DNA of 64,000 nt from Patiria pectinifera (lineage: Eukaryota; Echinodermata; Asteroidea; Valvatida; Asterinidae), in assembly GCA_029964075.1 (NCBI GenBank), contig CM057147.1:25937513-26001512 (forward strand), read 5' to 3'. The notes beneath the pieces are model-generated. The model was given only the letters and a program-made list of their open reading frames with translations, made no database searches and was not told the origin of the DNA. Shown here one piece after another: positions 18,280-64,000 of this stretch. A program made the translations under genes and the position numbers. Position 1 is the first letter of the stretch; each line of letters opens with the position of its first letter.

Positions 18280-19882
18280 TACGGTAGCCCTGGAACGACA
18301 TTTTAATATTGACCTTTTTAATATGAATCTTGTAACTTCTTAATATTGACGTTGTACCTTCGCAATATACACGTTGCACGTGGCTTAATATCGCATTTTG
18401 GAAGTTGTTCCTTCTTAATGTGAATGTTCCAACTTGTTAATATTCACGTTCGATCTTGTCAATGTACACCATTGATCATGCTTGATGTCAACGTTGCAGG
18501 AAGAAAGAAATCATTACATTCAGAAAGCAAACCGGTATAAATGTGTGTAGTAAACGGTTGAAATGATTAGATCGGGTTATTTGAAACAATGACAAATTTG
18601 CTTTAGGATGCATGTTTTTACATGTATGCCCAACCTTGGGTTATGGTTAGCATGAACATGAATTATAAAATATGAGTGAAATAAAGCAGAGAGCCTTGAG
18701 TCATGATAAAAATCACTACAAGGTAGACCCAGGTTAAGTGACATTAAACAGCCGTCAGATTGAAACTCCATCATAACTGGTTCTTCCGGTTACCCCCTAT
18801 TTTTTATTTCCGACCCTATTTTAAAATTTTTATCAAAAAAAAAAAAAAAAAAAAAAAAAAAATAAAAAAAAAAAAAAAAAATTTATATCTTGTCTGTCTT
18901 CACAAAAAACCTACAACTCAAAAACCCATCAAAAATGCTTGTATTTTTATTTCTTCTTACATTCATTTTTTATCAAAGAAAAAGAAACTATTTTTACAAA
19001 TTTCGCTGCGCGATTCGACTTTCAACTACTCTATCGTCTATGCGTACGTGCGTAATATGCTACGACGACGACTGGCCGCCGCCGCGCGCCGCGCAGTGGT
19101 TATGATGATGCGGTAGCACGGCTCTGTGCACGCACGCGCGATCGAGAGCGTAGCAGTGCATGGGGGCGCAGCAGGCGCGCAGGCACTCTGTCTGTCAACT
19201 GGTCGGATCAATCGTAAAAAAAAATGCTGAAAGACATCGTAAAAATGCAAAAAAAACACCGATGGAGAAAATTTTTTTTTGTTAAGTCAATTCACAGATT
19301 TGATCTAGCATGTCTGTGTGTTTATTTTTTTTTTTTCGAGAGTTCATTGAGATCGTACTACTTGTATTGGATACAATGCAGCGTGTTTGTGAAATTTTTT
19401 TTTTTCCGTTGGCCGCGGGCCGAGTACATACAGTGCGTCACACACTTCGGAGTTTCGGCCCAGCTCCATTCTTGACTAGCGTTGTGCCTATGGTGCGAAC
19501 GACCTGAATTTTTGTCTAACTATAGGGCTTGGCAAGGACTTCGTACTTTTTAGAATGCATGATTCACATTGCGAAGGAGGACGGTTCAACAATGATATTA
19601 ACAAGATGCAAGGTCAAACGTTCACAATGCGAAGGTACATGGTTCATATTGCGAAGAAGCAAGGTGCAACGTTGACATCAAGTATGATCAATGGTGTACA
19701 TTGACAAGATCGAACGTGAATATTAACAAGTTGGAACATTCACATTAAGAAGGAACAACTTCCAAAATGCGATATTAAGCCACGTGCAACGTGCATATTG
19801 CGAAGGTACAACGTCAATATTAAGAGGTTACAAGGTTCACATTAAAAAGGTCAGTATTAAAATGTCGTTCCAGGGCCACCGT
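18280..19882. mobile_element. 1.6-kb foldback transposon with 8-bp target duplication
   Basis: The flanks are an exact direct repeat ACCCTGAC (18272-18279 and 19883-19890). Inside, the ends are long inverted repeats of about 220 bp containing GCCCTGGAACGACATTTTAA and repeated AATATTGAC/AATGTGAA words. The roughly 1.15-kb centre holds an A-run at about 18835-18882 and a GC-rich part near 19040-19200, but no transposase. The 8-bp duplication fits hAT-like (or P-like) insertion; it is non-autonomous. Confidence 0.8.
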
Positions 19883-19925
19883 ACCCTGACACAACCACCA
19901 ACAGTACATCGTTTACTTTACCGAT

Positions 19926-23000: not shown

Positions 23001-26000
23001 CCTACATAGCTCATTACATCAGGAAAAAATCAATGCGCTTTACGAAATTAATCGCTTACGTCATTAGAAGTGCATCAAAATCACTTGGAATATTTATACT
23101 AAAATCTGACAAAAATATTATGTTTTAAGACCCGTGAACTTGGCTATGTTATTGATGCTAGCTTAACAGGTCTAGGTTTAGTGCCGACTCACAAGGTGAT
23201 TGTGTATCTACGGGCCTGGTTCCTATGAGGGAACAAAATCCACTTTTAATTATTTGACTAACCAATGAAACTAGTCGGCGACAGTAGGAACATTCATGTA
23301 TGGGGTGCTGATTTTTTAGGGTAATTTGGGGGTACTGTGAACACGTAAGGTGTGCTGAATCACATAGCACCAACCATAAACAGCATAAGAACATTTGAAT
23401 TTCTACCCCAAGGAACTTCAACAATTACAAAAGAAATGTGTCATCAGAAATCTGCTTCAAGTTAAAAAGGGCATATTTAAATAAGAAAACACCTTGACTG
23501 CAATTTGATCGAAACTAAACAGGGGCCCTACACATTTGTGTTCTTGGATTGGGGTGATAAGGAGATTGTCTTCCATTAACATGATTTTGTGTTACATATA
23601 TTTTATTTCCAGGCTTGGAGAGGCATGCAGCCATATTGCAGCAGTAATGTTCAAGTTGGAGGCAGCGAACCGCCTAGGTTACACTTCACAGGCATGCACT
23701 GAAAAGGCCTGTAGTTGGAACAAAGACTGCATGAATGGGAGGGACTTAGACCCATGTACCCTTAAAGATCTTAGCTTCACAAAGCCTAAACATCAGTCAA
23801 GTCAAGGCCGGCAAGAAAATAGGTCAGTACGCCCACTCAACCCTCCATCAACAGCCACTTTAGGAGATCTTGATTTAGATGCATTGGAGAGGGTAAGCCC
23901 AGAGGCATGCATTTTTTCACTCCTGCCTAAGCAAGATGAAGACACTGACACAGCATCAGAAAATGAAAATAATGTAAAACTAGAGTTGCAGACAGAACTA
24001 CCAACACCCTATTGTCACCTTAAAGCAACTGAAGTTCCGGACCGTCAGCAAATCTCTGAAGAGCAAGCAGAACTCATTGCATCAAGCACATCTGGACAGA
24101 GAAAATCAAACTTGTGGCACCTCTATCGTTATGGTAGAATTACTGCATCAGTACTGGGGTCTGTGGTCAAATTCATGAATGGATCGTCAAAGAGGGATGT
24201 CTCTTCACTCTGCTCCAAAATGCTTGGACTTAACTCGTTCTTTCCAACCAGGGCCATGAAATGGGGGATTGATCATGAGTCAGTGGCCTTGGCTTCTCTG
24301 AAACAGTGTTTAGAGTTAGAGGGCCATCAAAATGTTACACTGTGGAATGTTGGGCTCTACATAGACCCAGATTCACCATTTCTTGGAGCATCTCCTGATG
24401 CCATGGTCAGTTGCACATGTTGTGGGGTGCAGTGTGTGGAGGTCAAATGTCCACACAACAAAAAAAATGCACACAACCTAGATCCACAAAGTTTTGCTGG
24501 AGCCAAAGCCATTGACTGTTTGAATGTGACAGGACATGAACAAAATTGTACAATCTCTCTGAAGGAAAAACATGACTACTTTTACCAAGTGTTGTGTCAA
24601 ATTGGTGTTCTAAACAAATTGAAAAATGTATCATCTGGGTTGTTTGTTGTTTGGACATCCAAAGGAATGTTTGTGCAGAAGATTCATCATAATGCAGACC
24701 AGTGGAAAGCAATTAAGGAATACAGTGAATTGTTTTTTAAACAATATCTCCAGCCTTCAATTGTAAAGATTGCACAAAAGCCAGAGTTGTAGTTTTGGAT
24801 AGACTTGACTCAAGTCGGAATTGCACTAATTCGGTGTCTCAAATTACCAAACACACTTAGTTTACATCTTTCCAGAAGCATGACAAGTTACACTAAACGC
24901 CCGTTTCACTTAAGTACATGTATAACAATTAAAACAGTGCTTGCACATATTGTACGTCTACATGTGTGGATGTGCATGCATCAAGCACCATGTATGTGTA
25001 CATGTATATAATTTTTTTTTTTTTAAGTTAGCAATTCCGACTTGATCAACTGCTATCAGCACCCCCACCCTGGCGAAATGAAACAGAACTGAGCAAAAGT
25101 ACATTGAAGTAAAGGTGAAATGAGGCAAAAACAAAAGTTACAAACAATACAGAGTGGGGATTTGCTTCCTCCAATCTTCAGATTTATTTATGTATAATCT
25201 TTTATAAGTGCACTAGACATTTGTTAAATATACTGTATAAAATAAACTATGTAATTAAGATTTTTTTATGGAAAAACAATTGGCATCTTTCATTTTGACG
25301 TTTGTGAGGAAAGTTTGCTCATTGGCTGTCTGTCATGAACTGACACAACAACAAATCACTAAAAGGCAATTTTACTACATGTATGCACACTGTAATCTAA
25401 AATTCTGGCAACTGTTTGTTCACAAACCAATTTGGTTTTAAGTGTACATGTTTTAAACCAACCAATTACATATTTATTCCCATAGGCTAAAAAAAAATGT
25501 CATGTTAACGGTACCTGGAAATTTTGGGGCCAAATTGCCATCCTAAAACTGTTTGTCATTTTGCAAAAAAATACAGTACACATATATTGTTAATGAGTCT
25601 CAAACATTGCAAAAGAACATTCAAACTGGAATGAAAGAAAAAAAAAATCAGCATAAAATCATTTCCCTACCTATCTACCTGAATTTGTTTTCCCCCAGAC
25701 TGTTACCGTAAACACACAAATTATTTTGTTGGCCTAAATATTAATATATTGCAGAAGAATTAGAATATCACATATTTTATCATATACATGTATTTCAAAT
25801 TCAAATGTAATTTAAATAATATTTTTGTGAGTTGTATGGTCAGTTTGAAGGCAAAATATTTAAAAAACTATTGATGTATTTAAGTTATTTATTTGTGCTA
25901 GGCCAAAAAATGAAAGTCTCCGGTTTCTGGTATGCGCACGTCACCGTAGCCATGCAAACCAGCAAAATGAAAAAAAAACCTTTCAATGCAAGATATGATG

Positions 26001-29000
26001 TCTCAAAACTGCCACACTCACTGGTTTGATTGGAATCTGCTGCTGCACAATTTTAACGTGTTTTAAAACATGGGAGTTGTGATCAAGTATACAAGTAAGC
26101 TTTATGTGTCCTCTCTAGATTCCCATATATTTTGCACTAAATTTAGTCGGGCACCATTTGCAATCATCAGCCAACATTTGAAAAAAAGTAAAACAAAAAC
26201 AAAAACAAAAAACAAGCTGTGTTGCCGCACGACTTTTGGGACAAGCTCCACACCAGAAACCGGAGACTTTTTTTTTGCCTTTAGGTCATGTCAAACTATA
26301 GGCCTACCTATATACATTTATACTGTACATGTACTTCACCATATTTTAATTTGCACAAAAAGCAATGGAATAAAAAAGTTAAGTTGAAATTATTTATTCT
26401 TGTAAAATAAATGGATTTGGACATTGTATAGATTGTGTGACCTGTAAATTCCTCTCATGATAGTTTTTCACCTTCGTGAATGCAAGAATGGCAAGGGTTG
26501 ATCTCGCATTGAAAAGATTGAACCCCTATGCATGTTTTTGGAATAAAGATTGCCTATAAAATGAAGGGAATTTGACCGAAAACCACTCTAAAAACTACAG
26601 TATGACCATTTAACCCCACATCAACAGCCACTTGACTCGAGATCTAGATGTAGATGCATTTGAAACGGTGAACCCCAATGCATGCATTTTTTCACTCATC
26701 CCCAATCTAGATGAAAATACTATACTATAACCGGAATCAGGAAATGAAAATTAAAATAGAGCGGCAGATGAAACTACCAAAACCTTTCTTGTCACTTTAA
26801 TTTAGGAAACTTGGGATGTTTTGGTTGGGGTGCCCTTTGGCTATGCCACTTCATTGCTCTGCAGTCCACACACTGAAGAGCAAGACTTTTTTTTGGCCTT
26901 AATACCTTTTAATGGTCACATTACTGCATTATTGACATGGTAAAGATTGGTTCATCGTACTTATGTTCCCTTACGGGCTCCGTGCACAAATACTCCCAAC
27001 AGTCAGAGAAAGAGAGTTGGGGGAGACCTAGACTGGTTCCCAGTTCATCCACTGCATTTTTAGCATGATCAGAAGTCAGTGGGGTGCGGATTAGTCTGGC
27101 AGTGGCAGACCATTGTTAGAAACATGAACATATTTGCGCATCGACCACGCCTGACTGTCACATGAAGACACTGTGACTAAAAACTTTGGTACATTCAGGA
27201 ATTCATGCACATGGTTCTCAAAAGTGGTAGCAAAGAAGCCTCTCTTGTTTGCGCAAGGAGCCCGTTTAGGGTATAAAATGAGATGGACAGTAGTGTCCAC
27301 AGAACAAATTGGATGTTTAGTTCCTTTAATTGAGGTAGCCACACTACTTGACTAGAGCTGGAAGAAGATTGGTCAATGCAGCACACACTGCAATTATGTC
27401 ATCTATAGTTCTAACAAACGTTATGGGTACAACATGCTGCAAAATGTGAAATTCCTTAATACGCCCTATTGCCCTTTCTACATGGATGCGGACATTTGAT
27501 AGACTGCGTGAACCTGCAACTTCCTGTCCAGATAGTTGTTTCTTCCCTTTAGTGAATGCAGGAATGGCCAGAGTGGCACCATGTACAGCAAGTTCCTCAC
27601 CAATAGTGAACCCCCCTGTCAGCTAAGATGAGGTCACCAGGCAACAGTTTCTCATAAAGCCCACTCTTCTGGGTCAATGTTTTATCGGAAACTCTACCTC
27701 CAAAACATCTGGACAAAAACATAACTGCACCAGTAGGTGAAATGCCTATTAAAACTTTGATAGTATTGTGATGTTTGTAGTGACTATATGTGTGTGCTCT
27801 AAGTTTGAGATCTGAAGGACGTTGCATAAATATTTCAAAGCAGTCAATGATGACTGGTGTTTTGCGATACTTCTTTGACTTCTTAAAAGCTTTGGGAAGA
27901 GTGCGTCTAAGAGTGTTTCTATCTGGCCAATGTATCAATGGCTTCATCTTGCCAGCCATGTGCTTAATCCATAAATTAAATATCTTGGAAGCGCTGGATC
28001 GTGATATTTGAAAGCGGTCCGCTATGTCATCAAAAAGTAAATCCAGCCTAAGCTTCATAAGAACTAAAAATAACTGATCCTTTAAATTAAGACATCTGCA
28101 AAACGAAGAAGACACACCATGAACAAGCTGATGAAATAACCACAGAAAAACTAAATAAGAAGGAAGACCAGTATAGAATTTACATTTTTTGTCAGATTTA
28201 ATTCTATCATTGGACCACTTTAGTTTGTCCACTTTACTGTGTAGGGAGCGAATATCAGATTTTAGATTTGCTATTTCATCACGGTACATTTTGTGTGGGT
28301 CACATTCCTGGGGATCCATGGTCTGACTTGAAGCTTGTCGGGTAGTTGTTTCGTGCACACAATTTTCCTTCCTCCTCTTTGTGGATGGTGGCAGCAAAGG
28401 CGAGCTGCTGGAAAAAAAAATACAAAAACAAAAAGATTTTGGGAAAAGGCAATTAGCATTAGGCTTTGCATTAGGCCAAAGAAATGCTTCTGATTAATAC
28501 ATGGCATTTGAAAATTACATGAGTTAGGTAGGTATACATGTAGGGAAAGCCGTGATGTGCTGGTTTTTTTCCCCCCATTCAGGGTAGGTAGGGTAACCAG
28601 ATGCGGAACTATTATGTTTTGGCCTAAGTAGAGTAAACTTATTCACATTAAACAATGTTGTATGTATTTAATCAAAGTAACCAATTAATTTTTATTTTTA
28701 TGCATTATAAAAAAAAATTGAGGTTTATAAACAATTTAAATTAAAGGCGGTTGCTTCAAAAAGGCATGTGGGCAGGGATGATAACCTGGGGTTTTTTTTT
28801 ATTGGGCCTGAAGTTAAACAAAAATGAACTTACAAAAAGTTTAAAATTCAAAATATATTGGTCCTCAAAAAAATTCCATGACTATTAATTTACTGTTTAG
28901 GGCTGGAATTTGAGAAAAGAACTAGGTCAAATAATAAAAAAAAAACACGTTTAGCGTTCCCGCCCACTTGCTCTTTGGAGGCCGCCTCCTATTTCATTTT

Positions 29001-32000
29001 TTTTAGCAACCAAAAAATGATAAATTTTAAACAGACATCATTTTGGCCTAGCCCATAAAAAGCTGGTATGTCATTTACTGAGTCCAATGGCGGTAATAAA
29101 AAAACAAAAAACTGGCAGCCATTTTGCAACATAGCCTAGTCAGGTGGCCATTTTGGAGAATTAAATCAATCAAAGGGCCTCCCGCTTCCTTTTTTGCAAA
29201 AAGGCAAGCACTAAACATGTTTTTTTTTATTTGACCATATATAAGACTTCATTTCTTATCTTTTGTTTTCATGCCGCGAGAACCCTGATACTTCTCTCAC
29301 ATCTCATTAAGTGAAGTGATCTTTTCAAAAAGGAGACTGATAGTGTATGTAAATCAAATGTCATAAGAAAAATGCAAACGTACTTAGTCACTGGGTCTGG
29401 TTCCAGCTGTGGCATGGATGGTGAAGTGGTGGTTTGCTTCCTCTTTCGATCTGAGCGCTTCTGCCATTTCTCGTGACGTTTAAGTTGCTCCTGCCCTTTC
29501 CTGAGTTGGTCAGCTGTAGTTCCGCTAAATACAGTTGGAACGAAGTCCACATGATTGTCATCTCTGGAGTAATTTCCTGCAAAATCCCAAATCAGAAAAG
29601 ATAAAGAATAATTAAAATAAAATCAAGGTTATGATGAAATTGCAATATGAGTTCAGCTACATTTTTTCCCCTATGTCTTTGCATAATACTATCCATTTAT
29701 CAATAATAATAATAAATACCCAAAATATTTTATTGCATGCATGATGATGCAGAGTCCTGGAGTCTATCCTACTCCAGTGCGGAGTCTATCCTACTCCATG
29801 TCAAGGCTAGCACTTGACTTGTCATGCTGGTTAGCATGGTCATGATGGTTTGCCTCGCAATTGCCTAAGAATAGACCCTTTTTTATCATAGGCCTGGAGG
29901 CCTAGGCTAGGCCTAGGTCCCCTGGCCTAGGCCTAATCATTCATGATTCTTATGTTTTTAATTTATTCCTCCCATGGTTTGTTGAAATAAAAACACAAAT
30001 AATTTTAACCGGTTGAGGCTTTCATGATTTATAAAAACCTCAAACAATGCCCATAGATCATGTAGGCCTAGTGATAGACCTTTACCTGTTTACTGACCAG
30101 AAACAAAGTGTCGACTGCAGATCCTATCATGTAGTGATGGTTGCCACTGCTCATCAAAGACATCTGTCCAGTCGCTGTGTTGCCGTACGGCACAAATCCA
30201 AGCCTGCCGTTGCACTGGAAAGGCCTCAAAATCGGGAAAACGGAAACATTTTATTCCCGAGTCTTTCATGTGCCGCTTGTTGCAACAACAACAAGTAACA
30301 ACCATTGTGACGCCGCCGGCCGCTTTCACCTTTCGTATTTTCAAGAGACTTACGAACGTGACGTGACGTCAGCGGACTGTTCAGCTGCTGTGCATGTGAA
30401 ACTCGAATTGCGCGGGAAACGAGATTTGTCAACATCGGTAGTTTGCCAACCAAAATGGCGGGTTTGTTTTGTCACGTGATGCGTGACGTATCAAAAGAAA
30501 GGCTTATAAACACAGCCAATTACTTACGTAGTTTCGTTTACGTTTCGACTAGTTTCACTAGTCATCCTTTGAACGAAGCACCACCAGTCGGTTGGTGGCG
30601 CTGTTTCCTGTTGCGGCTACTAGATAGTGGTCTGGCCGCTTGTGTCATCCCCCGGGGTGGTACTTGGGGTATGAGGGGGTCCCATATCTGTCACACATAT
30701 GGGCCCCCCTCATACCCCAAGTGCCACCCCGGGGGAGGATACAAGCGGCCAGACCACCATCTAGTGGCCGCAACAGGAAACAGCGCCACCAACCGACTGG
30801 TGGTGCTTCGTTCAAAGGATGACTAGTGAAACTAGTCGAAACATAAACGAAACTACGTAAGTAATTGGCTGTGTTTATAGATAATTCATTAACAAAGTTG
30901 AAAATTCACCAGCCTGATGAACTTCTTTCATAATAGTCTGGTTCCTTTTTGCACAAAAACGTCATCATTCAGTACTGTTATTGGATACGGGGAACATGAT
31001 TGAAATGGTGGCAGCATAATAGGTCAAAATGCACCTGTTTGCAGGTCTTGGACGTTTGCAGCGTCGAGCCACGGCCACAGAGGACAACTTTGATCTTGTC
31101 TTCGGCGTCAACCACTTCGGCCACTTCCTGCTGACCAACCTCCTCCTGGACCTGCTGAAAAAGAGCTCCCCCAGCCGGGTAGTCACCGTCTCCTCCTCGG
31201 GCCATCGTTATGCCAAGGAGTCCATGAATCTGACTCGCGAGGATCCGGCCGTGGCCAGTTTGCTGTATCCACACTTGGAGGGCTACATCATCAGCAAGCT
31301 GGCCAACATTCAGTTTGGCCGGGAGCTGGCCAGGCGGGAAGCATCCAGCGGTGTAGTTTCTGTCTCCCTGCATCCAGGGACCATCTATACTCCAATATGG
31401 AAAAACGCCATAACCGATGACACCGTTTGGTGGAAAGTTCTTTACTACATACTCTCACCGTTAATGTGGTAGGTATAAACATTCATTAATAATTGTTACC
31501 ATCCAAATAATGCTTTCACTCTCCTCCTTATAGAAACTGCATGCGCCCAACTTATTTTTTTGAGCAATTCTGTTGTTTCAAATGAAAAAAATGCACAAAC
31601 AGCTAATGTTCCTAAACTGCATTCTGAAGTCAAATGTTTTGCAAGGAAACTTTTTATTCATTTTACTCAATTCAATTCAATGCAATTTCAATTCATAGAA
31701 AAATATTCCGGAATTTAAAGGTATCGTGGAAAGTCATTGAATTGTGTTATTTTACAATAAAAAAATGACATTCCAAGAACAAAATCGTAGAAAAATCATG
31801 GAATCTTGCACAACCCCTACGTGATGATGCGTAATGTGTGGCTAGGGCAGTCTTCCGCTGTACATTGACTATACTCTTTATGCATACATGTATATGCGCA
31901 ATACTTGTTGTTCCTTCAATGCACCATTGTGATGTTTCTATGGTGCGCAATTATGGTCTTATGTCAAACTTTAAGAATGAAAGGGAAAGGTGTCCCTTGC

Positions 32001-52173: not shown

Positions 52174-52803
52174 TCATATCATGTTTGTCAAAATCTTGGG
52201 AGAAAAGCGTTGTCAGTGGGGCACTAACTCCGAGAATCACTTCACCCTTTACAAAACAATACTGCTGAAAAGATGCAGCCGGAGATGAGTAATTGTTTCA
52301 TGGTGGCATGCTCAAAGACACCAGCCACCATTGCTTAAAGCCAGCCTATACACGGGCTCAGAAATCGTACCCAGAGATGATGAGATGATGAGAAGGCAGG
52401 ACATGAGTGAGCAGTTTGATGATGAGTAATTGTTGTCAAGTGGCTTGCTCGTTAGACGAGGCTCTGCCTGCTATCAGATGCCATTTGGTAGTATACACCT
52501 TGTGCATAGCCGCCATCTTGGAGAATGTTTTGGTCATTTTAATTCAGGAACAATGAATGCACCAAATGGCTACTTGTGCATGTATCCCAGTGAAACAAAG
52601 GACTTGTCCTCTAAGATGGCCGCTACGCAAGGTCTACAGACATGAATCCTAGGCTAGGATCCTAAGTTTGAAAATTACCTTTCTAACGTCATCTATTTTT
52701 TGGCGTTCTATACGTGCTGTTTGTGCGCAGAAATTGGTGCCATTTCGGCGCCCTCTTTCACACAAAAAAATCATGGCCTATTACAAAAATTGGAAGGATT
52801 GCT
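52174..52803. other. Intergenic, 3' side of RDH-7
   Basis: Between the tail-to-tail genes RDH-6 and RDH-7. No coding domain or named repeat is seen. Confidence 0.4.
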
Positions 52804-55800
52804 CTAACATTCCAAGCCAGTTGCTTCACAGCTGACTTCCCACAATCTCCTGGCTAGCTTGTCATCCTGAGCGACTGCTGACGGCAATGCTACCTGGCAG
52901 TTGTCAAAGTAGCTCCCGGAGAAGTTAGCGACCGAGTCGTCTAATGCACAGTAAAGGGTGGTCTGGGCACCCGCCTCCTCATCAATAAAGAACAGCCTGT
53001 GTTTTGAAATAATATAAAAATCAACAAATTACATAGGGGAACTGACTATATTTTCTTTTAATCAATACAAGGCATAAAGAACTGGACTGGACAGACGATA
53101 ATATGTAATCTAAGGTCATAACTTCTCTGATGATTTCTGAGTTTGAAATTCAACATTTTTAGTACTGAATTTTCAGAACTGAAAACAAGCATGGCAAGCA
53201 TTTTGTTAGTAATATCAAAGCTTTTGCGAGCATATCCGAGTCAAGGAAAACATGTTTAAAAAACCTCCTGTTCTGGAACCAAGAGAAATATTGCTCATTT
53301 TGATATAAACATGAAGCAGGCACCTATTTGACCTTAGATTCTTTGGCAAAGTCAGAATCTTTGGGTCTAGGAACCAGATTTACTGGACCTAGTATAATAC
53401 CTGGCACCTAGTACCTGGTATCTGGTACCCGGGACATAGTACCTAGTACCTGCTACCTTGCAGAGTGTGATGCCATGCACAGTTTTTTTCACAGGTCTAC
53501 ACTTACCAAAAGAATGGAAGACTAAAGAAGTGATAGACACTAGTGATCCAGTCCCTGGACATGTGACTCCAGATAGGGGTGTAAATCACGCCAGGGTGGA
53601 GCGACACAGAGGTGACATCGGTGGATTCCAGACGCCTGGCCAGCTCCCGGCTGAAGAGGACATTGGCAAGCTTGCTCTGAAAGTAATCCATCAGGTACGG
53701 GTACAGAACGGGACTCTGTCCACTGGGGTCCTGGCGGGTAAAGTCCAAGGGAACGGATGCCCATCTGTGCCCTATGGAGGAGACGGTGACCACCCGGCTG
53801 GGGGCGCTCTTCTTCAACAGGTCCAGGAGGAGATTGGTCAGCAGGAAGTGGGCGAAGTGGTTGGTGCCGAAGATGGCGTGGAAGTTGTCCTTGGTGACGT
53901 CACCCTCTTTGGCAAATCCAATACCTTGCAATTAAAGGGTGGGTTTTTGTAAATCAGACTGGACACAAAGAAGCTTAGAAATATATTAGGGGCAGTAGGC
54001 CCATGGTGTGGGCCTCTGCATGATGATGCCTAGCAGCGATGTCCAGTCAACTTTCCGAGAGAACTTTCTGAGATTCTGAGAAGGAAAGTGTGGACTGAAT
54101 GTCTGTGATCCCAAGTGCAGCCAAATATAAACAGGATCAGGTCATGAACTGTACTCGGACTTTGCCCAACAAAATTCTCCAACAGGCAAAAGGAATAATC
54201 CACAATATTTTGCTGCACAGAAATGAGAGCTCCAAATTATTGGATTACCATTTGTTCAGTAGCGGTACTAGACAAGGAAAGGTGGGGGGGGGGGGGGGCA
54301 AAGAAGGAATTTGACCCAGGATACCTTTATTTTAAACTTCTTTTGTTCATGACAAAATGGTCTTTATAATGTCATCAAGTTACGACTGTAGTTTAACACA
54401 GGTAACACTAGCCCAGGTTGGACAAAGTCTTCATTGCATTATGACTAACGTCCAGGACGAGAATTCTCTACATAAGACCACCCAAAATTTGGACCATTTT
54501 TTGGTTACGTTTTACCTCGTTACAGAAGCTTATTTCACGCCTACATTCTCTATGTGTCCTTACCTATTGGGCCGCTGGGTTCAGGAATTCCATATGTGAT
54601 GCTGACCGACATTAATCAGAAAAATAAACTCTAAAGCAACGTTAAACTTGTACGTGTTTGTAGTCTCTTTTCATCAGTTTATTCCCAGAGTCGTACGTCA
54701 TGTACAATGTACGTGCATACGAAAGCGCGCACGCACGCTAGCACCTTCATTTGTTTAGTTTTGGTTGGAACCGTGACGTCACTCCAGCCAACCGATGTCA
54801 CGAAAACGCTCAACCAATGACCAAAGCCGAAACGTGTTTCTGGTAACTGGCGCGAAAACACGCTCGGTCATTGGATTAGCGACCGCGCCTTCAAGTAAGT
54901 GCGCGTGCGTATGAGGGTGGTTACAAAGCAAATCGCGCGTGCGCACTGCATATTCATGCTGCATAGTCTGGCCCCCCGGACCAGATGTGATATGAGCGTC
55001 GAGAATAATTGTCCGGTCTAGGGAACCAGACCACACACTGCACAGACGTACATCATGGTACGACTAGAATAGACTCGGCGGTGAGAAACTGATGAAAAGA
55101 GTCTACAAACACGTACAAGTTTAACGTTGCTTTCGAGTTTATTTTCCAGATTAAGGTCGGTCAGCATCGCATATGGAATTTCTGAACCCAGCGGCCCAAT
55201 AGATAAGGCTACATAGAATACTACGACGTAAAAATTAGCTTCTCCAACAAGGTAAAAATATTGAAAATACTGGTCATAAATTTTTTCGCCCGGTTTTGAG
55301 CACTTTATACCCTGGACTCCCTCCGTTACGTAGGGAGGAAAGGGAGTCCACCTGGGCTAAGGTAACACCTGTGCTCAACGTTTGGAAACAAGACTTTCGA
55401 TTGCACCCCAATACCAATAGCCCCAATTATGTTTTGTAGAGTCTGATGCCACCACTACTTTACATGGTGCAACAAGGCTACACAGTCCACACAGAATCCA
55501 TAAAGTTTAGACTCACCGGCATTGTTGATCAGAATATCCAATCTGTCTTCACTTTCGACAATCTTGCTCGCAAACTCTTTGACGGAGTGCAGACTAGCTA
55601 GATCCAGGTGGCGCACCACCACCTCCGAGTTGCCCGTACGCGTCTTGATCTCCTTGGCAGCATCTTCAGCCTTCTGGAGATTGCGACAGGCGAGGATGAC
55701 CCGGGCGCCTCGCCCGGCCAAGTCCAGGGCCGTTACTTTGCCGATACCTGAATTGGCCCCTATATAGCCCCATAAATGTGGCCTATTTACTGGACTACCT

Positions 55801-56677
55801 CCGTAAACATAGGCCACAAATCCACATGTACAAAAACGTGTCGCACTTTGCCAAATTTTGATTTTCACATTTAGGCTTAGTTTGTGGGGTTTTTTTTATA
55901 GGATAATCAGAAAGTGCTGCCTTTTTCAGATGTCTATTTTTCGTGAAATTTCCAGATTCATTTGCACACGTTTGCGTATCAAAATTTCAACATGAAATTT
56001 CACGAAAATTAGACATCTGAAAAAGGCAGCACTTTCTGATTAGCCTATAAAGTATGCTTCTAAAGCTAAAAAACCCTACAAACTAAGCCTAAATGTGGAA
56101 ATCAAAATTTGGCAAAGTGCGACACCTTTTTGTACATGTGGATGTGTGGCCTATGTTTACGGAGGTAGTCCAGTAAATAGGCCACATTTATGGGGCTAGC
56201 CCCTATAATGTACAACAAAACTTTTGTTTATTTTTATTCCCAGTTTTGCACAACAGGAATAGTGTCTGCGCCTGAATTGCACCAAAAACAATATATACAC
56301 ATTAGTGCCTTCAGTTCCCCTCCCCTGGAAAATTGGTGCACCCTCAGGTAGGTACCAGGGTACCCCCCCCCCCAGAACTTAAGTTTTACCAGTCTGTGAT
56401 ATCCATACTAACAAAAGTATGTGCACAGGGCGTCAAGTGATATCCAGGTACGTACTGTTTATAATTGGAAATCTTACTTTCTTACTCTTAGTTAATTTGT
56501 CGTCTTCTAAAAGCGTCAAATTAATATCAACATACCTGTAATTATGACTGTCTTTCCTTTGAGCACAGCATCGCTACTGTAGTACTGTCGACTACTGATA
56601 AACTGCCAATAATACACACTGTAAAGTGCCACTAAAATAGGCAAAAACCACCTCAAAACTGTGGACAATCCTACCAT
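52804..56677 (-). CDS. RDH-7: retinol dehydrogenase-like SDR, minus strand
   Basis: Exons (minus strand) 56677-56536, 55759-55517, 53924-53507 and 52996-52804 join into 332 codons (331 residues), phases 1, 1 and 2. Anchor at about 9-27 (WFLPILVALYSVYYW); canonical TGANSGIG 47-54 with [21 protein letters not shown] 126-129; catalytic N150, S178, Y209 and K213 (YFQSK). The C-terminus has GAQTTLYCALDDS and LWEVSCEATG and ends LEC. The segment before the catalytic Asn is IFGTNH rather than FGINH or FGVNH. Exon 3 is nearest to RDH-8 and RDH-2. One transposon lies in intron 2, and a 434-bp MITE sits directly against the exon 2 acceptor; the acceptor used must be the copy in the target duplication. 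NADP(H) retinoid or lipid oxidoreductase by family. Confidence 0.85.
54409..55359. mobile_element. 951-bp foldback transposon in RDH-7 intron 2, 9-bp target duplication
   Basis: Flanked by the direct repeat AGGTAACAC (54400-54408 and 55360-55368). Ends TAGCCCAGGTTGGAC and GTCCACCTGGGCTA are inverted. Interior arms at about 54560-54710 and 55040-55215 pair over about 160 bp (shared GTGTTTGTAGTCTCTTTTCA region). RDH-8 intron 2 holds the empty site (AGGTAGCACCTATGCTC). No transposase. The 9-bp duplication points to a Mutator-like element. Confidence 0.85.
55765..56198. mobile_element. 434-bp palindromic MITE at the RDH-7 exon 2 splice acceptor, 9-bp target duplication
   Basis: Flanked by GCCCCTATA at 55756-55764 and 56199-56207. 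Ends TAGCCCCATAAATGTGGCC and GGCCACATTTATGGGGCTA are inverted and the arms pair over about 190 bp. RDH-8 has the uninterrupted site (GGCCCCTAATGTAC). The left target copy overlaps the first four bases of RDH-7 exon 2 plus its acceptor AG. It shares TAGCCC ends and 9-bp targets with the 54409-55359 element, so both may use the same Mutator-like machinery. Confidence 0.85.
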
Positions 56678-57599
56678 GGTCGTCAATAACAATATGTTGC
56701 AGCGAAACTCACGTGCACATTTTGGATTAAGTTTACAGCGCCCTCACGGGTACGAGTTTACGCCTTTTTTTGGCCGTTAATAGCTGGGTGCGTTCGAGTA
56801 GTTCACCTCGATCGATCGGGTAAAGCTGAAAGTCAGACTAAGCTAGCCACGATCGAATCGGGTAAAGCTGAAAGTCAGACTAGTTAGCCACGAACTTGCT
56901 TTGCCGGGCTGTAAATCGAACGCTCAACCGCGGGCCATTACGATCGTGAAGTGATATCCGTAGCCACTGCCGTAGCCACTGACAGAACGCCCGTTTCGTG
57001 CTGTGTCTTCGTAATAGGGCCAGGGGCACCGCACTAGCGCCTAGAACAACCGCGCCGATTTGTGGACGTGTTTTTTTTTCAGTGGCCTCCATAAAATCAA
57101 AAATCAAATAGGGGCCTTCTTAAAAACTGATCATTATTTTTAACGTATACTGGCTAATATGTCGATTTTCAAGGCGCATTGTCAAGGTTTTCTTTGGCTT
57201 TTTTTCCAAGTCAGAAGTTTATGACCATTTCTGGAAACTAGTTACTGAACAAAATCTTTCAACAAGGTGCCCCCGCCCCGGCCCCCTAAGGCATGATTTA
57301 CCGCCTTTCAGTTCAGTGCATAACTAAAAAAAAAAAGTTGGGCTGGAATGATGACCTAAAGTCGCAATGAACTCAATAATAATAATTACCTTTAATATTC
57401 AAAAACAGTTTTATTTTGATGTCCAATGAAATATTGACTCACTGGTATTGCGCACGCTTAAGACCAGCCAGCCGGTTGGTTGTGACAAGTTAAATGAAGC
57501 CGAGAAATCACTACGAGACCCAAAGTGTCTTCCATTCACAGAGCGTAGTAAATACTCATGTAGGGTGCGTGATGTGTGATTTGTTAAATTAATACGATA
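56678..57599. other. 5' flank of RDH-7 and spacer
   Basis: A short direct repeat, GGGTAAAGCTGAAAGTCAGA, occurs at about 56818 and 56860. No gene is recognised; the open frame at 56880-57107 on the minus strand shows no family features. Confidence 0.45.
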
Positions 57600-57965
57600 A
57601 GGCCAAAAAAAGAAGAAATAATCGGTCTCTGGTGGTCAGACCGAAGTTCTGGAATTGATGCGGCGACGCGGGTTTTTTTTTTTGGGGGGGGGTGTTTTTT
57701 TTTTCAAGCTTCAATTGTACAGACAAGGTGGGTACTATTTTGCTTTTTTGTGTCCTTATTAAAACATTGGTGTCCTCCATCATTTGCCTTGGTGCCCTTT
57801 ATCATTTGCCTTGGTGCAGTTTCCCATTCCTTGATGCTCCTTGGTAGGTGCGGCAATAGAGGGCGCTGTTGTAGCTTCCGTATTAATTTGAAGGAAAACA
57901 AAGGTTGACGCGCATGATTAAAATCGACGCGCGCTGACCAGAGACCGAGTTTTGTTTTTTTGGCC
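57600..57965. mobile_element. MITE family A, copy 3 (divergent)
   Basis: Ends AGGCCAAAAAAAG..CGGTCTCTGGT and ACCAGAGACCGAG..TTTTTTGGCCT are inverted. They resemble copies 1 and 2 in the outer part (AGGCCAAAAAAA) and in the CTGG core, but the interior differs, so it is a related subfamily. Confidence 0.65.
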
Positions 57966-58291
57966 TAATATGCTGCAGAAAAATCACACGCGAGCCGGAG
58001 TGTGCAGCAGGGTGTGCTGGCAGTACAAAGATATCAATAATGCATGACGAAATCATACAAGAGGCCGATGCCAGTTCTTTTCAGGGGTAGGCTGTAATAA
58101 AAACCGATGTTGCGTACTGAAAGTGTGCAATTGCCTATTTCATACTCGACGTTTAAAATAAACCACAAATTTGCAGAAATAATGGAGGCAACCACAGCAT
58201 TTATAATCATCGTAGCTACATTGGCTGTACTGTACTTTCGTCACTACAAGAACCACATTGCTTGTCGGCGGTACTGCAGGATTTTGTTTTG
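57966..58291 (+). other. Spacer with a hydrophobic open frame (58182-58292)
   Basis: An ATG at 58182 opens a short frame, MEATTAFIIIVATLAVLYF followed by RHYKN and a Cys/Arg-rich end, that resembles a signal-anchor exon such as RDH exon 1, but it stops at 58290-58292 with no GKT..TG motif and no clear donor. It lies exactly where the missing exon 4 of RDH-8 would be. Whether it is a remnant exon or chance is undecided. Confidence 0.3.
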
Positions 58292-60123
58292 AAATAATGA
58301 AAAAAAATCCAAACAAATTACATAGGGGAACTGAATATATTTTCTTTTAATCAATACAAGGCATAAAGAACTTGACTGGACTGATGATCATATGTAATCA
58401 AAGGTCATAACTTCTCTGATGATTTCTGAGTTTGAAATTCAACATTTTTAGTACTGAATTTTCAGAACTGGAAACGAGCATGGCAAGCATTTTGTTAGTA
58501 AACCATTTTACACCTACATGTAATATCAAAGCTTTTGCGAGCATATCCGAGTCAAGGAAAACATGGTAGCTGGTAGCTGGTACCCGGGACAAAGTACCTA
58601 GTACCTGGTACCTTGCATGAGTGTGATGAGTGTGATGCTATGCACAGTTTTTTCACAGGTCTACACTTACCAAAAGAATGGAAGACTAAAGAAGTGGTAG
58701 ACACTAGTGATCCAGTCCCTGGACATGTGACTCCAGATAGGGGTGTAAATCACGCCGGGGTGGAGCGACACAGAGGTGACATCGGTGGATTCCAGACGCC
58801 TGGCCAGCTGCCGGCTGAAGAGGACATTGGCAAGCTTGCTCTGAAAGTAATCCTTCAGGTACGGGTACAGAACGGGACTCTTTCCACTGGGGTCCTCATG
58901 TGTGAAGTCCAAGGGAACGGACGCCCATCTGTGCCCTATGGAGGAGACGGTGACCACCCGGCTGGGGGCGCTCTTCTTCAGCAGGTCCAGGAGGAGATTG
59001 GTCAGCAGGAAGTGGGCGAAGTGGTTGATGCCGAAGACGGGATGGAAGTTGTCCTTGGTGACGTCACCCTCTTTGGCAAATCCAATACCTTGCAATTAAA
59101 GGGTAGGTTTTTTGTAAATCAGACCGGACTCAAAAGAGCTTAGAAATCTATCAGGGGCAGTAGGCCCATGGTGTGAGCTTCTGGATGATGACGATGCCTA
59201 GCGACGATGTCCAGTCAAGTTTCTGAAATTCTGAGATTCTGGGAAGGAAAGTGCGGACTGAATCAGGCTATGAGCTGTACTCAGACTTTACCCAACAAAA
59301 TTCTCCAATTCCATCAGGCAAAAGGAATAATCCACAATATTTCGCTGCACAGAAATGAGAGCTCCAAATTATTGGATTACCATTTGTTCAGTAGCGGTAC
59401 TAGACAAGGAAAGGTGGGGGGGGGGGGAGCAAGGAAGGAATTTGACCCAGGATACCTTTATTTTAAACTTCTTTTGTTAATTACAAAATGGTCTTTATAA
59501 TGTCATCAAGTGACGACTGTAGTTTAACACAGGTAGCACCTATGCTCAACGCTTGGAAACAAGACTTTCGATTGCACCCCAATACCAATAGCCCGAATTT
59601 TGTAGAGTCTGATGCCACCACTACTTTACATGGTGCTACCACACAGAATCCATAAAGTTTAGACTCACCGGCATTGTTGATCAGAATATCCAATCTGTCT
59701 TCATTTTCAACGATCTTGCTCGCAAACTCTCTGACAGACTACAGGCTGGCTAGATCCAGGTGGCGCACCACGACCTCCGAGTTGCCCGTACGCGTCTTGA
59801 TCTCCTTGGCGGCGTCTTCGGCCTTCTGGAGATTGCGACAGGCGAGGATGACTCTAGCGCCTCGCCCGGCCAAGTCCAGGGCCGTTACTTTGCCGATACC
59901 TGAATTGGCCCCTAATGTACAAGAAAACTTGTACATTATTCCCAATTTTGCACAACAGGAATAGTATCTGCGCCTGAATTGCACCAAAAACAATATATAT
60001 AATGCCTTCAGTTCCCCTCCCCTGGAAAATTGGTGCACCCTCAGCTCAGGTGCCCCCCAGAACTTAAGTTTTACCAGTCTGATATCCATACTAACAAAAG
60101 TTAGGGTATGTGCACAGGGCGTC
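58285..60123 (-). repeat. Segmental duplicate of the RDH-7 locus
   Basis: This block matches about 53000-56440 (RDH-7 intron 3 to intron 1), less the two insertions in RDH-7. Shared intron landmarks include TACATAGGGGAACTGA and GGTGGGGGGG. The edges cut through the exon 4 acceptor on one side and intron 1 on the other, so only the middle of the gene was copied or retained. Confidence 0.8.
58671..59911 (-). pseudogene. RDH-8: broken duplicate of RDH-7 (exons 2 and 3 only)
   Basis: Exon 2 (59911-59669) and exon 3 (59088-58671) keep the exact lengths (243 and 418 nt), splice sites and most codons of RDH-7. Exon 2 has an in-frame TAG at 59739-59741 where RDH-3 reads CAG (LASLQSV), truncating the product before NNAG. 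Exon 1 is gone: homology to RDH-7 stops at about 60123, just before a transposon insertion. Exon 4 is gone: homology stops within the intron 3 acceptor at about 58285. Exon 3 otherwise retains N, S and YFQSK, so loss is recent. Intron 2 (580 bp) lacks the transposon found in RDH-7. It cannot encode a functional enzyme. Confidence 0.85.
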
Positions 60124-60135
60124 ATGCATCCTGAC

Positions 60136-61832
60136 TATGGCACGCCAAAGCGGAATTTATTCAACCCTGCACGGCAACTGCCAACATTATAAAATACATC
60201 ACAACTTTTTTGAAAAGTATGTCAACATTGTAAAATATATGTCAACATTTTAAAAAATATGTCAACATTGTAAACAATATGTTAACATTTCAAAAACGTA
60301 TGTCAACATTTTAAAAAATATATGTCAACATTTCACAAACGTATGTCAACTTTTCAAAAATATATGTCAACTTTTTAAAAAATACATGTCAACATTTCAA
60401 AAATATATGTCAACATGTTTAAAAAAAATATATGTCAACATTTTAAAAAAAATGTCAACATTAAAAAAAAAAATATTTGTTCTGATTAATTAACTAGAAA
60501 TTACATGTCAACATTGCCAAAACTACCTACCACTTGTTGACAAATATATGTGTCAACCCATCCTGATACAAAGTTCACCTAAAATACGTGTCAACATTTC
60601 GTCCAAAAATATGTGTCAACACAACCCGATGAAAAATATATGCCAACATTCACGTGACCGCCACGACATGCGCGAAGTATGCTGCGCTAGCACCCGGTGT
60701 CACGGTCTCACTTCTCCGGCGTGCTGGATTCTCCGGGTGAATGCGGCGGATAATTTAGCACGTTACAGTGCACGTTACATGAGCACGATACATGCTCATG
60801 TGTCCGCTGTGCTTACTTTTCTTCGGGCGGTGCTATAGAGTCTACCAAGTCCACCCAAGAGGGTGCAGTGAACTAATTCAAGTGAGAATTTCTACGCGAG
60901 CTGATTAGCATAAAAAAAGTGACCCCACAGTTTCTTTTGAAAACGGAGACAGTTTGGCTAAAAAAACCCGGTGGAATTGTGTAAATATAGCCAAGGATCA
61001 ACTGCCTGGTTTTTTGGCTTCCATCTGAGGGCAGGCTTGATAAAATTACGGTTGAAAAATGGGTCCTAAAAATGCCACTTGTAAAACGGCTACATGCAGG
61101 CTTGGGAACTATCACTTTTCGGGAGGTGATTTTGTTTTGGTGTGAATATTTAAAAATGTAATCGGCTAATCTACCCAAAATTGAAAAAGAAATGAAAAGA
61201 TGAAGTACCAGACAATAATTTAATTTTTGTTTGAGAAACCCCAGTGATGACGGCTTGCATGTTATTTGGCCCAGAACTTTGTTGATGTTACACTGTTTTC
61301 AATGGGGCTTGAATTGGTTCAGTGCACCCCTAAGGGAATTTTTGGAACCAGACTAAAGCTGCTGCAACCTCATTCCGCCGAGAGCTAGATATCCGCCGAG
61401 AGCCGAGAATCTTGATATAGCTTGTATTCATAGATTTTTAAAAATGTTGACATATTTTTTTTATAAAAGTTGACATATTTTTTTAAAATGTTGACATATA
61501 TTCTTTTAATGTTGACATAAGTTTTTGAAATGTTGACATATTGTTTACAATGTTGAAATATTTTGTTTTTAAAAGTTGACACATTTTTTTTTAAATGTTG
61601 AAATATATTTTTTAAATGTTGACATATTTTTTAAATGTTGACATATATTTTAAAAATGTTGACATAAGTTTTTGAAATGTTGACATATATTTTTTAAAAT
61701 GTTGACATACGTTTTTGAAATGCTGACATATATTTTACAATGTTGACATACTTTTCAAAAAAGTTGTGATGTATTTCATAATGTTGGCAGTTGCCGTGCA
61801 GGGTTGAATAAATTCCGCTTTGGCGTGCCATA
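60136..61832. mobile_element. 1.7-kb foldback transposon with 6-bp target duplication
   Basis: Flanked by CCTGAC at 60130-60135 and 61833-61838. Ends are inverted: TATGGCACGCCAAAGCGG outermost, and the identity continues for about 110 bp through CCCTGCACGGCAACTGCCAA. Inside each end is a field of about 20-bp units of the type ATATGTCAACATTTTAAAAA (about 60210-60660 left; inverted at about 61430-61750 right). The centre (about 60660-61380) is unique and non-coding. Superfamily is not assigned. Confidence 0.85.
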
Positions 61833-61839
61833 CCTGACC

Positions 61840-63587
61840 ATGGCGGACGAAGGACCTATCATCATGACGGACAAGGTAAGAACAAATGTTGGATCTTTGC
61901 CACAAGAACAAATGACAAAGCTACCGAGGACATGAGAAAGGAAGGAAGACGTGTGTGGTAGCATGGTGGTAGTATCAGCAAAATTGCACAGGCAGTCCTC
62001 ATCAATAGGGTCAAATATTCAGACACTGTAAAAATGTCCACTGCTTTCGAAATTTGAGTTTCGTTTCTCATATGCAGTACAGTCAAATTCAGGGTGACCG
62101 TAAGGTCAGAGCCAAATTCTGCTAAATGCACCTCGAAAATCTGCCAGATTTATCAAAAATCTGTCAGATTTATCAAAAATCTGCCAAATTCCCCCAAATT
62201 ACTCGAAATACACTTAAAATCACATGCAGATTGGTAGTATTGCCTTAATTAAGATTCAAATTACACAATAAACAATCTAGTCACATAAAGATGTTTTGGT
62301 AAATTTTGGGCAAAACGCGGATCCGGCCACGTGAAGACGAAGTCCGTTTCCCAGTGAACCTCGGCACCTAGACAAGCCAACCTGTCCCATTAAGCAAGGG
62401 TTTGTTTGAAATGATTGAGGCTTTTTTAAACAAATGTACACTTTTTTTGTTCAAATTTGCTGTTTTTCTGTCAAATAAACATTTTGCAGAATTCTGCTAG
62501 ATGATCTGCCAAAAAAATCCATTCTGTCAAATTTTCTGTCAAACTCGTTTTTTTAACAAAAATTCTGTCAAAGTTAGCCGAAAATCAGCTAAAACGGTCA
62601 CCCTGGTCACATTATGACATGACATAAATGGGCGGGTTGGTGGGACACTGCGTCCAGCAAGGTAAAAAAGGGGCGTTTGTGAAAATAATTGTATTTGTAT
62701 CAAATAATTAATATGCCTACATGCAGATGCAACATTGTACTAGTATTTAGACACCGACCACTTTGTCAGTTTGTGAATTTGTTGGAAAACCCCGGCCGCC
62801 CATTTTGTTGGATCTGGGAATTCCCGTTTTTGTTATCATGATTTGATTATTTATTTAGCCTATCTAAGTTGGGTTTTTACATGTTTGCTATTTAAGCTAT
62901 TTGTATTCAAAGTCTATGTGAGGCAAAAATATTTTAATAAACATCAGCCCTAAATTTAATATTTGTTTTGGGTCGTCTTATCAAATTTTGTGTAGTATCG
63001 GACACCTCTATTTTTTACTTGTCCTGTTCAAAAGCGAAGGAGTGTCAATTCCAAAATTACTTTTGCAGCCTCCAGCAGTCTTTGTTATTTAGATAATTAA
63101 ACTCTTTAAGGTTCTATAAATTTGATGAATACTTTGGATGAAAATGTGACTTTTTACCTGTTTTTTGCAGTAGTGACGTGCGAGTCACTGAAGTTCAGAG
63201 ACCATTTCCTGTCTATGGAAGTTTTACCCCCATAATTTCCCACATAAAACAGAACCCTGCATTCTTTCTACAAAATTAAGCCTGCTTATATTGAACATGG
63301 TATCTTAGCAAACTGTTCAGGTGAGTCCAAACAAATCAGCGACTTTTCATGCTTTTATCATCGCCAAAATATTAAGTGAAGTCCCGAAACACAGGACTGT
63401 CTTTTTGTTCTCTTATATGGAACAGGGTCCTAAACTGCATGATTACCCCAAATTTATAATTATTCTCCTAATTCCCCAATTTAATTTTGGGACTTCAAGT
63501 TCTTACAGACCCCTGGAGATGTGGATCCAGAACTTGGTCTTACAAATAGTGTACCTCCACCCCCAGCTTACGATGAAATTGCACAAG
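61840..63587 (+). CDS. 5' end of an unidentified gene with a PPxY-type motif (partial)
   Basis: Two exons are proposed: 61840-61875 (MADEGPIIMTDK, good Kozak context ACCATGG, donor AAG|GTAAGA) and 63509-63587 (TPGDVDPELGLTNSV, then PPPPAYDEIAQ, donor AAG|GTATGTG), joined in phase 0 and leaving in phase 1 beyond the window. The acidic, proline-rich start with PPAY is typical of cytosolic tails that bind WW domains of NEDD4-type ligases; that role is inference, and the protein family is not recognised. The intron contains a MITE (62090-62605). The ATG lies one base past the target duplication of the 60136-61832 transposon, so the promoter or 5' UTR has been displaced by 1.7 kb or is supplied by the element. 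It could alternatively be a chance ORF pair. Confidence 0.45.
62090..62605. mobile_element. MITE with CAGGGTGACCGT ends
   Basis: Ends CAGGGTGACCGT and ACGGTCACCCTG are perfect inverted repeats. Inside, ATCTGCCAGATTTATC-like words repeat at the left and CTGTCAAA-like words at the right. It is 516 bp and non-coding, with no clear target duplication. It sits in intron 1 of the proposed gene at 61840. Confidence 0.7.
62606..63508. other. Intronic or intergenic spacer, no feature seen
   Basis: AT-rich, no recognisable coding or repeat feature. Confidence 0.4.
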
Positions 63588-64000
63588 GTATGTGTGTTAA
63601 AAGTCATGTCTCATGTACTGTATTCCCATGTTTGAGCATAACTTTAAAGCTAGCTTAACCAAGAATAGAAGTGCTTGATTCTAGATTGACATGTCAGGGT
63701 TTCCTTTGGAGAGTATTATGAGTTCATTGCATCTAAATGTCAGAAAAAAGAGATCCGGGGAGGGGTAATATTTTTCATGTGAATTTGTAACTGAGATCAA
63801 ATTTAGTCATCTCGGTTTCAAAGGGAAACTCAACGTTGCGGACAGTATACTCTGCCCGTCGTAAGGGAAGAGGTTTCAACAGAGAAGGGGTGTTATGTAG
63901 TGTGACTAGAAGCAGTGAAGGGCGTGATGAAGGACCCAGTATCTCCTGCTCTGGTTCCAAAGTTGCATCATTCACACGCTTCACTGCTGGAATCCCTTCA
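63588..64000 (-). other. Right edge; possible retroelement tail on the minus strand
   Basis: The complement of about 63825-63870 reads CGGGCAGAGTATACTGTCC followed by GCAACGTTGAG, resembling the tail near 3360-3400. The open frame to its right (63984-63775) has no named domain. It may be the 3' part of a retroelement cut by the window edge. Confidence 0.35.

Follow-up and report, generated by a model that had tools for sequence, protein, structure and literature searches.

The stretch considered here is a 64,000-nucleotide window of the Patiria pectinifera genome (GenBank assembly GCA_029964075.1, contig CM057147.1), and the term window refers below to this whole stretch. It contains an array of eight dehydrogenase genes, one of which, RDH-7, carries a fold-back transposable element on the splice acceptor of its second exon. 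RDH-7 lies on the minus strand and consists of four coding exons, all of them open, which join to a short-chain dehydrogenase of 331 amino acids. Its exon borders were drawn from the sequence and from likeness among the array genes (Table 1). The joined reading matches Pfam adh_short with an E-value of 4.2e-34 and contains all three of the motifs regarded here as typical of short-chain dehydrogenases (TGxxxGIG, NNAG and YxxxK). The residues encoded across the exon 1-2 junction, TGANSGIG, are taken to be the cofactor-binding turn. The best NCBIfam match, the oxidoreductase PRK06197, falls below its cut-off (222.7 vs 268 bits). Among the matches listed (E-values up to 1e-20), there are eight solved relatives, which are protochlorophyllide reductases or carry a mycobacterial protein label. 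The name RDH is the label of the first-pass annotation, and retinol as the substrate is only putative. In intron 2 of the gene, an inverted repeat with 132-nt arms (92%) occupies 54549-55217, and the stretch enclosing it (54409-55359) is without counterpart in the neighboring gene RDH-8.

Table 1. Features of RDH-7, its inserted element and the comparison gene RDH-8. A slash marks an exon border; strandless features are given a dot.
Feature	Position	Strand	Details
RDH-7 last coding exon, with stop	52804..52996	-	from the joined reading
RDH-7 exon 3, 418 nt	53507..53924	-	from the joined reading
RDH-7 exon 2, 243 nt, symmetrical phase	55517..55759	-	exon 1-2 junction codes TGANSGIG
Proximal copy of the target duplication, GCCCCTATA	55756..55764	.	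minus-strand TATAG/GGGC, adjoining the remainder of exon 2
Proximal acceptor AG	55760..55761	-	exon 2 first base 55759; sole scanned AG yielding the normal 331-aa reading
Fold-back (MITE-like) element, 434 bp	55765..56198	.	terminal inverted repeats TAGCCCC... and ...GGGGCTA; 131 + 58 nt arms, 97% paired
Cryptic acceptor within the inner arm, TGCTGCCTTTTTCAG/ATG	56017..56018	-	first exon base 56016
Distal copy of the target duplication, GCCCCTATA	56199..56207	.	immediately downstream of native intron 1 sequence
Distal acceptor AG	56203..56204	-	first exon base 56202; native upstream context; +443 nt, stop at 80 aa
RDH-7 exon 1, coding part, 142 nt	56536..56677	-	donor ACAG/GTATGT
RDH-8 exon 2, near-empty site	59669..59911	-	in-frame TAG at 59739-59741

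The first-pass annotation had placed a miniature inverted-repeat transposable element (MITE) on the RDH-7 exon 2 acceptor at 55756..56207, and these coordinates prove exact, with inverted arms and a 9-bp repeat found there. The outer arms (55765-55895 and 56068-56198) are 131 nt long and 97% complementary, and the inner arms (55895-55952 and 55994-56051) are 58 nt long, also at 97%. One arm holds a 17-nt insert and 41 nt separate the inner arms, while the bulk of the element is inverted repeat. Immediately outside both arm ends stands GCCCCTATA, a perfect 9-bp direct repeat. A search for direct repeats no longer than 12 bp, in which both ends could shift by as much as 12 bp, gave none longer than this 9-mer, which sits at offset 0,0; the probability that 9 bp match perfectly by chance at a single given position is roughly 4^-9. 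Read on the minus strand, the repeat comprises five intron bases including the acceptor AG (TATAG) and the first four bases of exon 2 (GGGC), just as the annotation had described its target. The insertion of the element across the acceptor and the duplication of AG/GGGC are confirmed.

The element has several features of a MITE, being short and non-coding, with terminal inverted repeats and a target-site duplication. Among stop-to-stop frames of at least 80 amino acids, only the exon 2 frame reaches into the element, and one opposite-strand frame of this size overlaps its first 3 bases. Mutator-like elements (MULEs) are characterized by long inverted repeats and duplications of 8-11 bp (PMC6446971), a pattern that agrees with the 9-bp duplication and the 131 + 58 paired nucleotides found here, the likeness being a structural one. 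According to the same source, evidence for MULEs in chordates is limited, and an earlier report from the Florida lancelet could not be confirmed. No second copy of the element was found with blastn in the 64-kb window, and Rfam at gathering scores returned no match in 52700-60500. The exact 19-base pattern of the terminal inverted repeat had no match among viral contigs, a collection unsuited to the question. The target resembles the element's own end at 10 of 13 bases, a likeness equaled or bettered at 36 of the 127,974 window positions on both strands, these 36 including the two ends of the element and the insertion site itself. From a single copy, this resemblance is only suggestive of a target preference. 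At the distal junction, 56184-56211 forms a near-palindrome in which the target resembles the end of the element.

Two acceptor cores, their products and their predicted folding

Because the target duplication doubled the acceptor, TATAG/GGGC now stands on either side of the element. The possible products were assessed by scanning AGs from 56525 to 55701. Six of those scanned keep the C-terminus in frame (first exon bases 55798, 55789, 55759, 55747, 55735 and 55708); at 55759 alone, TGANSGIG is encoded with nothing inserted or lost. Use of the proximal acceptor would produce the junction ACAG/GGGCCAAT and the full protein; the annotated view that the copy adjoining the exon keeps the frame thus stands at the level of sequence. 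Use of the distal acceptor would give a 686-nt exon in which the element is exonized and translation stops after 80 amino acids. Skipping of exon 2 is in frame owing to its length of 243 nt and its matching phases, and it would leave 250 amino acids from which the cofactor-binding part is lost.

Acceptor strength was compared with 22 acceptors from the eight-gene array (seven of exon 2, eight of exon 3 and seven of the last exon). The two RDH-8 acceptors were dropped from the score counts, leaving 20 natives. One matrix was built from these 20, with leave-one-out scoring for the natives, and the other was a generic human matrix. The array matrix gives the proximal acceptor 1.08, with one of the 20 natives lower, and the distal acceptor 4.04 against a native median of 4.37; among the 7,029 AGs of the window they reach the 93rd and 98th percentiles, respectively. 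With the generic matrix, the proximal acceptor scores -3.85 (two of the 20 natives lower; 70th percentile) and the distal acceptor -0.35 (native median 0.46; 89th percentile). The cryptic acceptor with first exon base 56016 receives 4.48 from the generic matrix and -4.31 from the array matrix. By these scores, the proximal acceptor is weak yet inside the range of the array natives.

The element had also been described as purine-rich upstream of the exon, which the composition does not bear out. At positions -24 to -5, the pyrimidine fraction is 0.50 for the proximal acceptor and 0.55 for the distal, that is, the original one, compared with 0.45-0.75 in the 20 natives, two of which lie at or below 0.50. 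Since the native RDH-7 acceptor was never pyrimidine-rich, there is no strong contrast between it and the element. Over the longer interval from -40 to -5, the distal acceptor is the poorer one (0.39 vs 0.44). Branch-like YTNAY motifs precede the proximal acceptor at -14 (TTTAT, with no AG after it) and at -45, the latter separated from the acceptor by four AGs. No such motif precedes the distal acceptor in the stretch searched, which says little because five of the 20 natives also lack one.

RNA folding predictions add a structural aspect to this comparison. In a fold of 883 nt, the arms close and the proximal AG comes to lie at the foot of the hairpin, with an unpaired probability of 0.85 (0.80-0.88 over three prefixes that include it). 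In folds of the same length, one of the 22 array acceptors is more accessible. For the 20 nt that precede the proximal AG, the long fold predicts 94% pairing; their unpaired value of 0.06 is the lowest of all, against 0.20-0.72 in the 22 array acceptors. In a 125-nt fold from which the other arm is absent, the same 20 nt have an ordinary value of 0.33. The distal AG has an unpaired probability of 0.12 in the 883-nt fold and of 0.14 to 0.48 in growing prefixes. Occlusion of the distal acceptor by the near-palindrome was considered and rejected: its value of 0.44 in 125-nt folds is inside the span of the 22 (0.00-0.93), and its 0.12 in the long fold is no sign of being shut off because 10 of the 22 array acceptors are lower. 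On the folding model, one of two situations would apply. With the hairpin open, the weak proximal context would be readable; with the hairpin closed, the native branch region would have to serve the proximal AG across the distal one.

RDH-8, the age of the insertion and constraint on RDH-7

RDH-8 shares with RDH-7 exon 2, exon 3 and the flanks of both. The proposal that it preserves the empty site can be retained in part: the shared flanks are free of the element, but RDH-8 is a pseudogene, and its site reads TAGGGGCC instead of the TATAGGGGCC expected in RDH-7 before insertion. The site is 2 bp shorter and can be called near-empty only. As TATAG is present in each of the two RDH-7 copies, the difference of 2 bp is most simply older than the insertion or arose in RDH-8. 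Comparison with RDH-8 confirms the insertion of the element, though not the exact empty site.

The RDH-8 pseudogene (58285-60124) has an in-frame TAG in exon 2 and lacks its last exon from the acceptor onward. Homology ends at this acceptor, and no other match to the last exon is present in 57201-64000. No match to RDH-7 exon 1 is found for RDH-8 up to the window end (64000); the RDH-8 exon 1 may be situated past that end. At 60136-61832, a fold-back element of 1,697 bp in RDH-8 intron 1 has the ends TATGGCACGCCAAAG and CTTTGGCGTGCCATA, a 6-bp flank CCTGAC and an interior with many TGTTGACATAT-like repeats. It is placed about where the homology to RDH-7 stops (60124), and no homology resumes beyond it. 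A further long fold-back element at 18280-19883, with ends TACGGTAGCCCTGGA and TCCAGGGCCACCGTA and flank CCCTGAC, is much like it; the two are possibly related and may share a taste for CCTGAC targets.

The age of the insertion can be estimated from the divergence of the arms, which differ at 6 of 189 sites (95% interval 1.2-6.8%). The noncoding flanks of RDH-7 and RDH-8 differ at 51 of 1,036 sites (3.7-6.4%) and by 20 indels. If the arms were identical at insertion, the age would be at most about 0.64 of that of the RDH-7/8 duplication, with wide limits; the figure is only an upper bound because the arms may differ at birth. In the 661 nt of exons 2 and 3, no indels separate the two genes where 12.8 would be expected at the noncoding rate. 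This absence mainly reflects that both genes were constrained most of the time, since the dead RDH-8 is equally free of indels.

Changes in exons 2 and 3 were polarized by codon alignment with RDH-2 to RDH-6, which left 12 of 32 without a direction. The RDH-7 branch holds 13 polarized changes since the split from RDH-8 (7 replacements, 6 silent), and the RDH-8 branch holds 3 replacements, one of them a stop, and 4 silent changes. These counts span the time before and after the insertion together, as the two are not separable. Three of the RDH-7 replacements fall within the stretch DNFHAIFGTNH of exon 3, among them V to I and I/V to T. At the columns of these two changes, V and I/V are the residues of the other five genes in the comparison. 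On these counts, constraint on RDH-7 appears not to be strong.

Explanations of acceptor use in RDH-7

The first-pass interpretation of a rebuilt acceptor is partly supported. The core was duplicated, but beyond the core the proximal acceptor is near the bottom of the array scores, the tract upstream of it is, by prediction, enclosed in the hairpin, and the distal acceptor is the stronger of the two. Nor must the branch point and the pyrimidine tract come from the element, as had been supposed: this is one of several outcomes, since native sequence still serves the higher-scoring distal acceptor. The sequence evidence leans toward competition with that stronger distal copy. The interpretation favored here, with a probability of about 0.55, is that a weak proximal and a stronger distal acceptor compete, so that the RDH-7 allele would be a partial loss of function (hypomorphic) rather than a clean repair.

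The sequence of events would be as follows. A non-autonomous DNA transposon, long-armed and structurally similar to a Mutator-type fold-back element, inserted across the 3' splice site of RDH-7 intron 1. DNA transposons duplicate their targets through a staggered cut and its repair, and the copying of nine bases in this way would account for the two identical acceptor cores, TATAG/GGGC, that the pre-mRNA now carries. The sequence shows that the distal core retained the native upstream sequence, and that the proximal core adjoins exon 2 and alone gives the normal protein. Because the upstream of two AGs usually wins, substantial use of the distal acceptor is expected. Such use would exonize the element and truncate the protein, and proximal use, perhaps together with in-frame skipping of exon 2, would make up the remainder. 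Several points weigh against competition of this kind. An exon of 686 nt might be disfavored, and of the two scoring matrices one is small and the other only generic. In addition, about 6 coding indels would be expected in RDH-7 since the insertion at the noncoding rate and the upper-bound age, and no frameshift is found; the intact frame therefore argues for continued function and for better proximal use than supposed.

A possible, though doubtful, alternative is a clean rescue, in which the proximal acceptor is used almost always, with a branch point and pyrimidine tract supplied by the element, and the protein remains normal. This would fit the absence of a disabling change in RDH-7, the proximal score within the native range of the array and the TTTAT motif at -14 with no AG after it, a motif test that is weak in view of the natives without YTNAY. 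However, the same score is weak, the pyrimidine content is among the lowest, and the sole branch-like motif free of intervening AGs lies very near to the acceptor. The upstream 20 nt are also more deeply paired in the full fold than in any array acceptor, with an ordinary value in the short fold, and a stronger acceptor stands upstream.

It is unlikely that the insertion abolishes correct splicing altogether, leaving a null allele of recent origin that is probably polymorphic. The intact reading frame speaks against such a full loss, as does a proximal acceptor that is not outside the native range. In its favor are the distal acceptor, which stands in its native context near the native median and leads to the early stop, and the 7 replacements among the 13 polarized RDH-7 changes, three of them in the exon 3 stretch named above.

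According to a further, improbable explanation, the element would act as a self-folding spacer. Its arms would close, bury the internal acceptors and bring the native branch region beside the proximal acceptor, so that the insertion would be tolerated through its own hairpin. The predicted fold is consistent with this in that the proximal AG is open at the hairpin foot and the 20 nt before it are more fully paired than in any other array acceptor. The difficulty is that the distal AG precedes the hairpin and shows no sign of being shut off in the same prediction. That the flanking 9-mers arose by chance or belong to a nested repeat, with no target duplication, is very hard to credit: the target does resemble the end of the element, but the inner limits of the repeats coincide exactly with the arm ends, and in RDH-8 the flanks are joined without the element.

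Known systems and other features of the window

The recruitment or rebuilding of splice sites by mobile elements through target duplications is a known kind of event, and RDH-7, at the level of the acceptor core, is another case. The canine merle allele carries a short interspersed nuclear element (SINE) at the PMEL17 exon 11 acceptor, with a 15-bp duplication associated with the original acceptor, to which a cryptic acceptor is the alternative (PMC7349775). The likeness lies in a mobile element on the acceptor at an intron-exon boundary, a target duplication and alternative acceptors. In merle, however, a variable poly(T) serves as the pyrimidine tract, whereas the RDH-7 insertion is a fold-back DNA element that has none, with the distal copy of the acceptor as the natural competitor. 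Introners include families with marks of DNA transposons (duplications of 3-9 bp and terminal inverted repeats), in which one or both splice sites come from the duplicated target (PMC9860276). They create new introns and have many copies, whereas in RDH-7 an existing intron is lengthened by an element at its end, with one copy in the window; six other array genes have the exon 1 donor and the exon 2 acceptor in the same place as RDH-7. In work on amphioxus opsins, a gained intron of PRHOXNB is noted to contain a MITE (PMC5802833). In yeast, stems between branch point and acceptor are proposed to shorten the effective distance and were found to occlude cryptic acceptors (PMC12350175). Those stems are short, in contrast to the RDH-7 stem with its arms of 131 + 58 nt. 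Among the papers listed in the literature searches, examined mostly by title and abstract, no title concerned this locus, which does not show that none has been published.

The case matters for the study of splicing because transposition copied the core of an acceptor, so that a single pre-mRNA has identical acceptors flanking a hairpin. Should splicing be kept, the case shows how a fold-back transposon can be tolerated on an essential junction. Should it not be kept, the insertion marks one stage in the decay of a tandem array of dehydrogenase genes whose neighboring member RDH-8 is broken already. In both cases, the same acceptor core present twice in one transcript provides a natural test of acceptor choice.

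Elsewhere in the window, 30505-30879 is a near-perfect palindrome with 187-nt arms at 96%, a 1-nt spacer and ends TATAAACACAGCC; inspection of its ends gave no clear flanking duplication. Upstream of it lie a YqaJ-type exonuclease (23509-24792, plus strand), a DDE_Tnp_4 transposase (27597-28493, minus strand) and a THAP domain (30090-30368, minus strand). The region 23509-30368 presumably represents a transposon of the ISL2EU type, which it resembles, or pieces of several.

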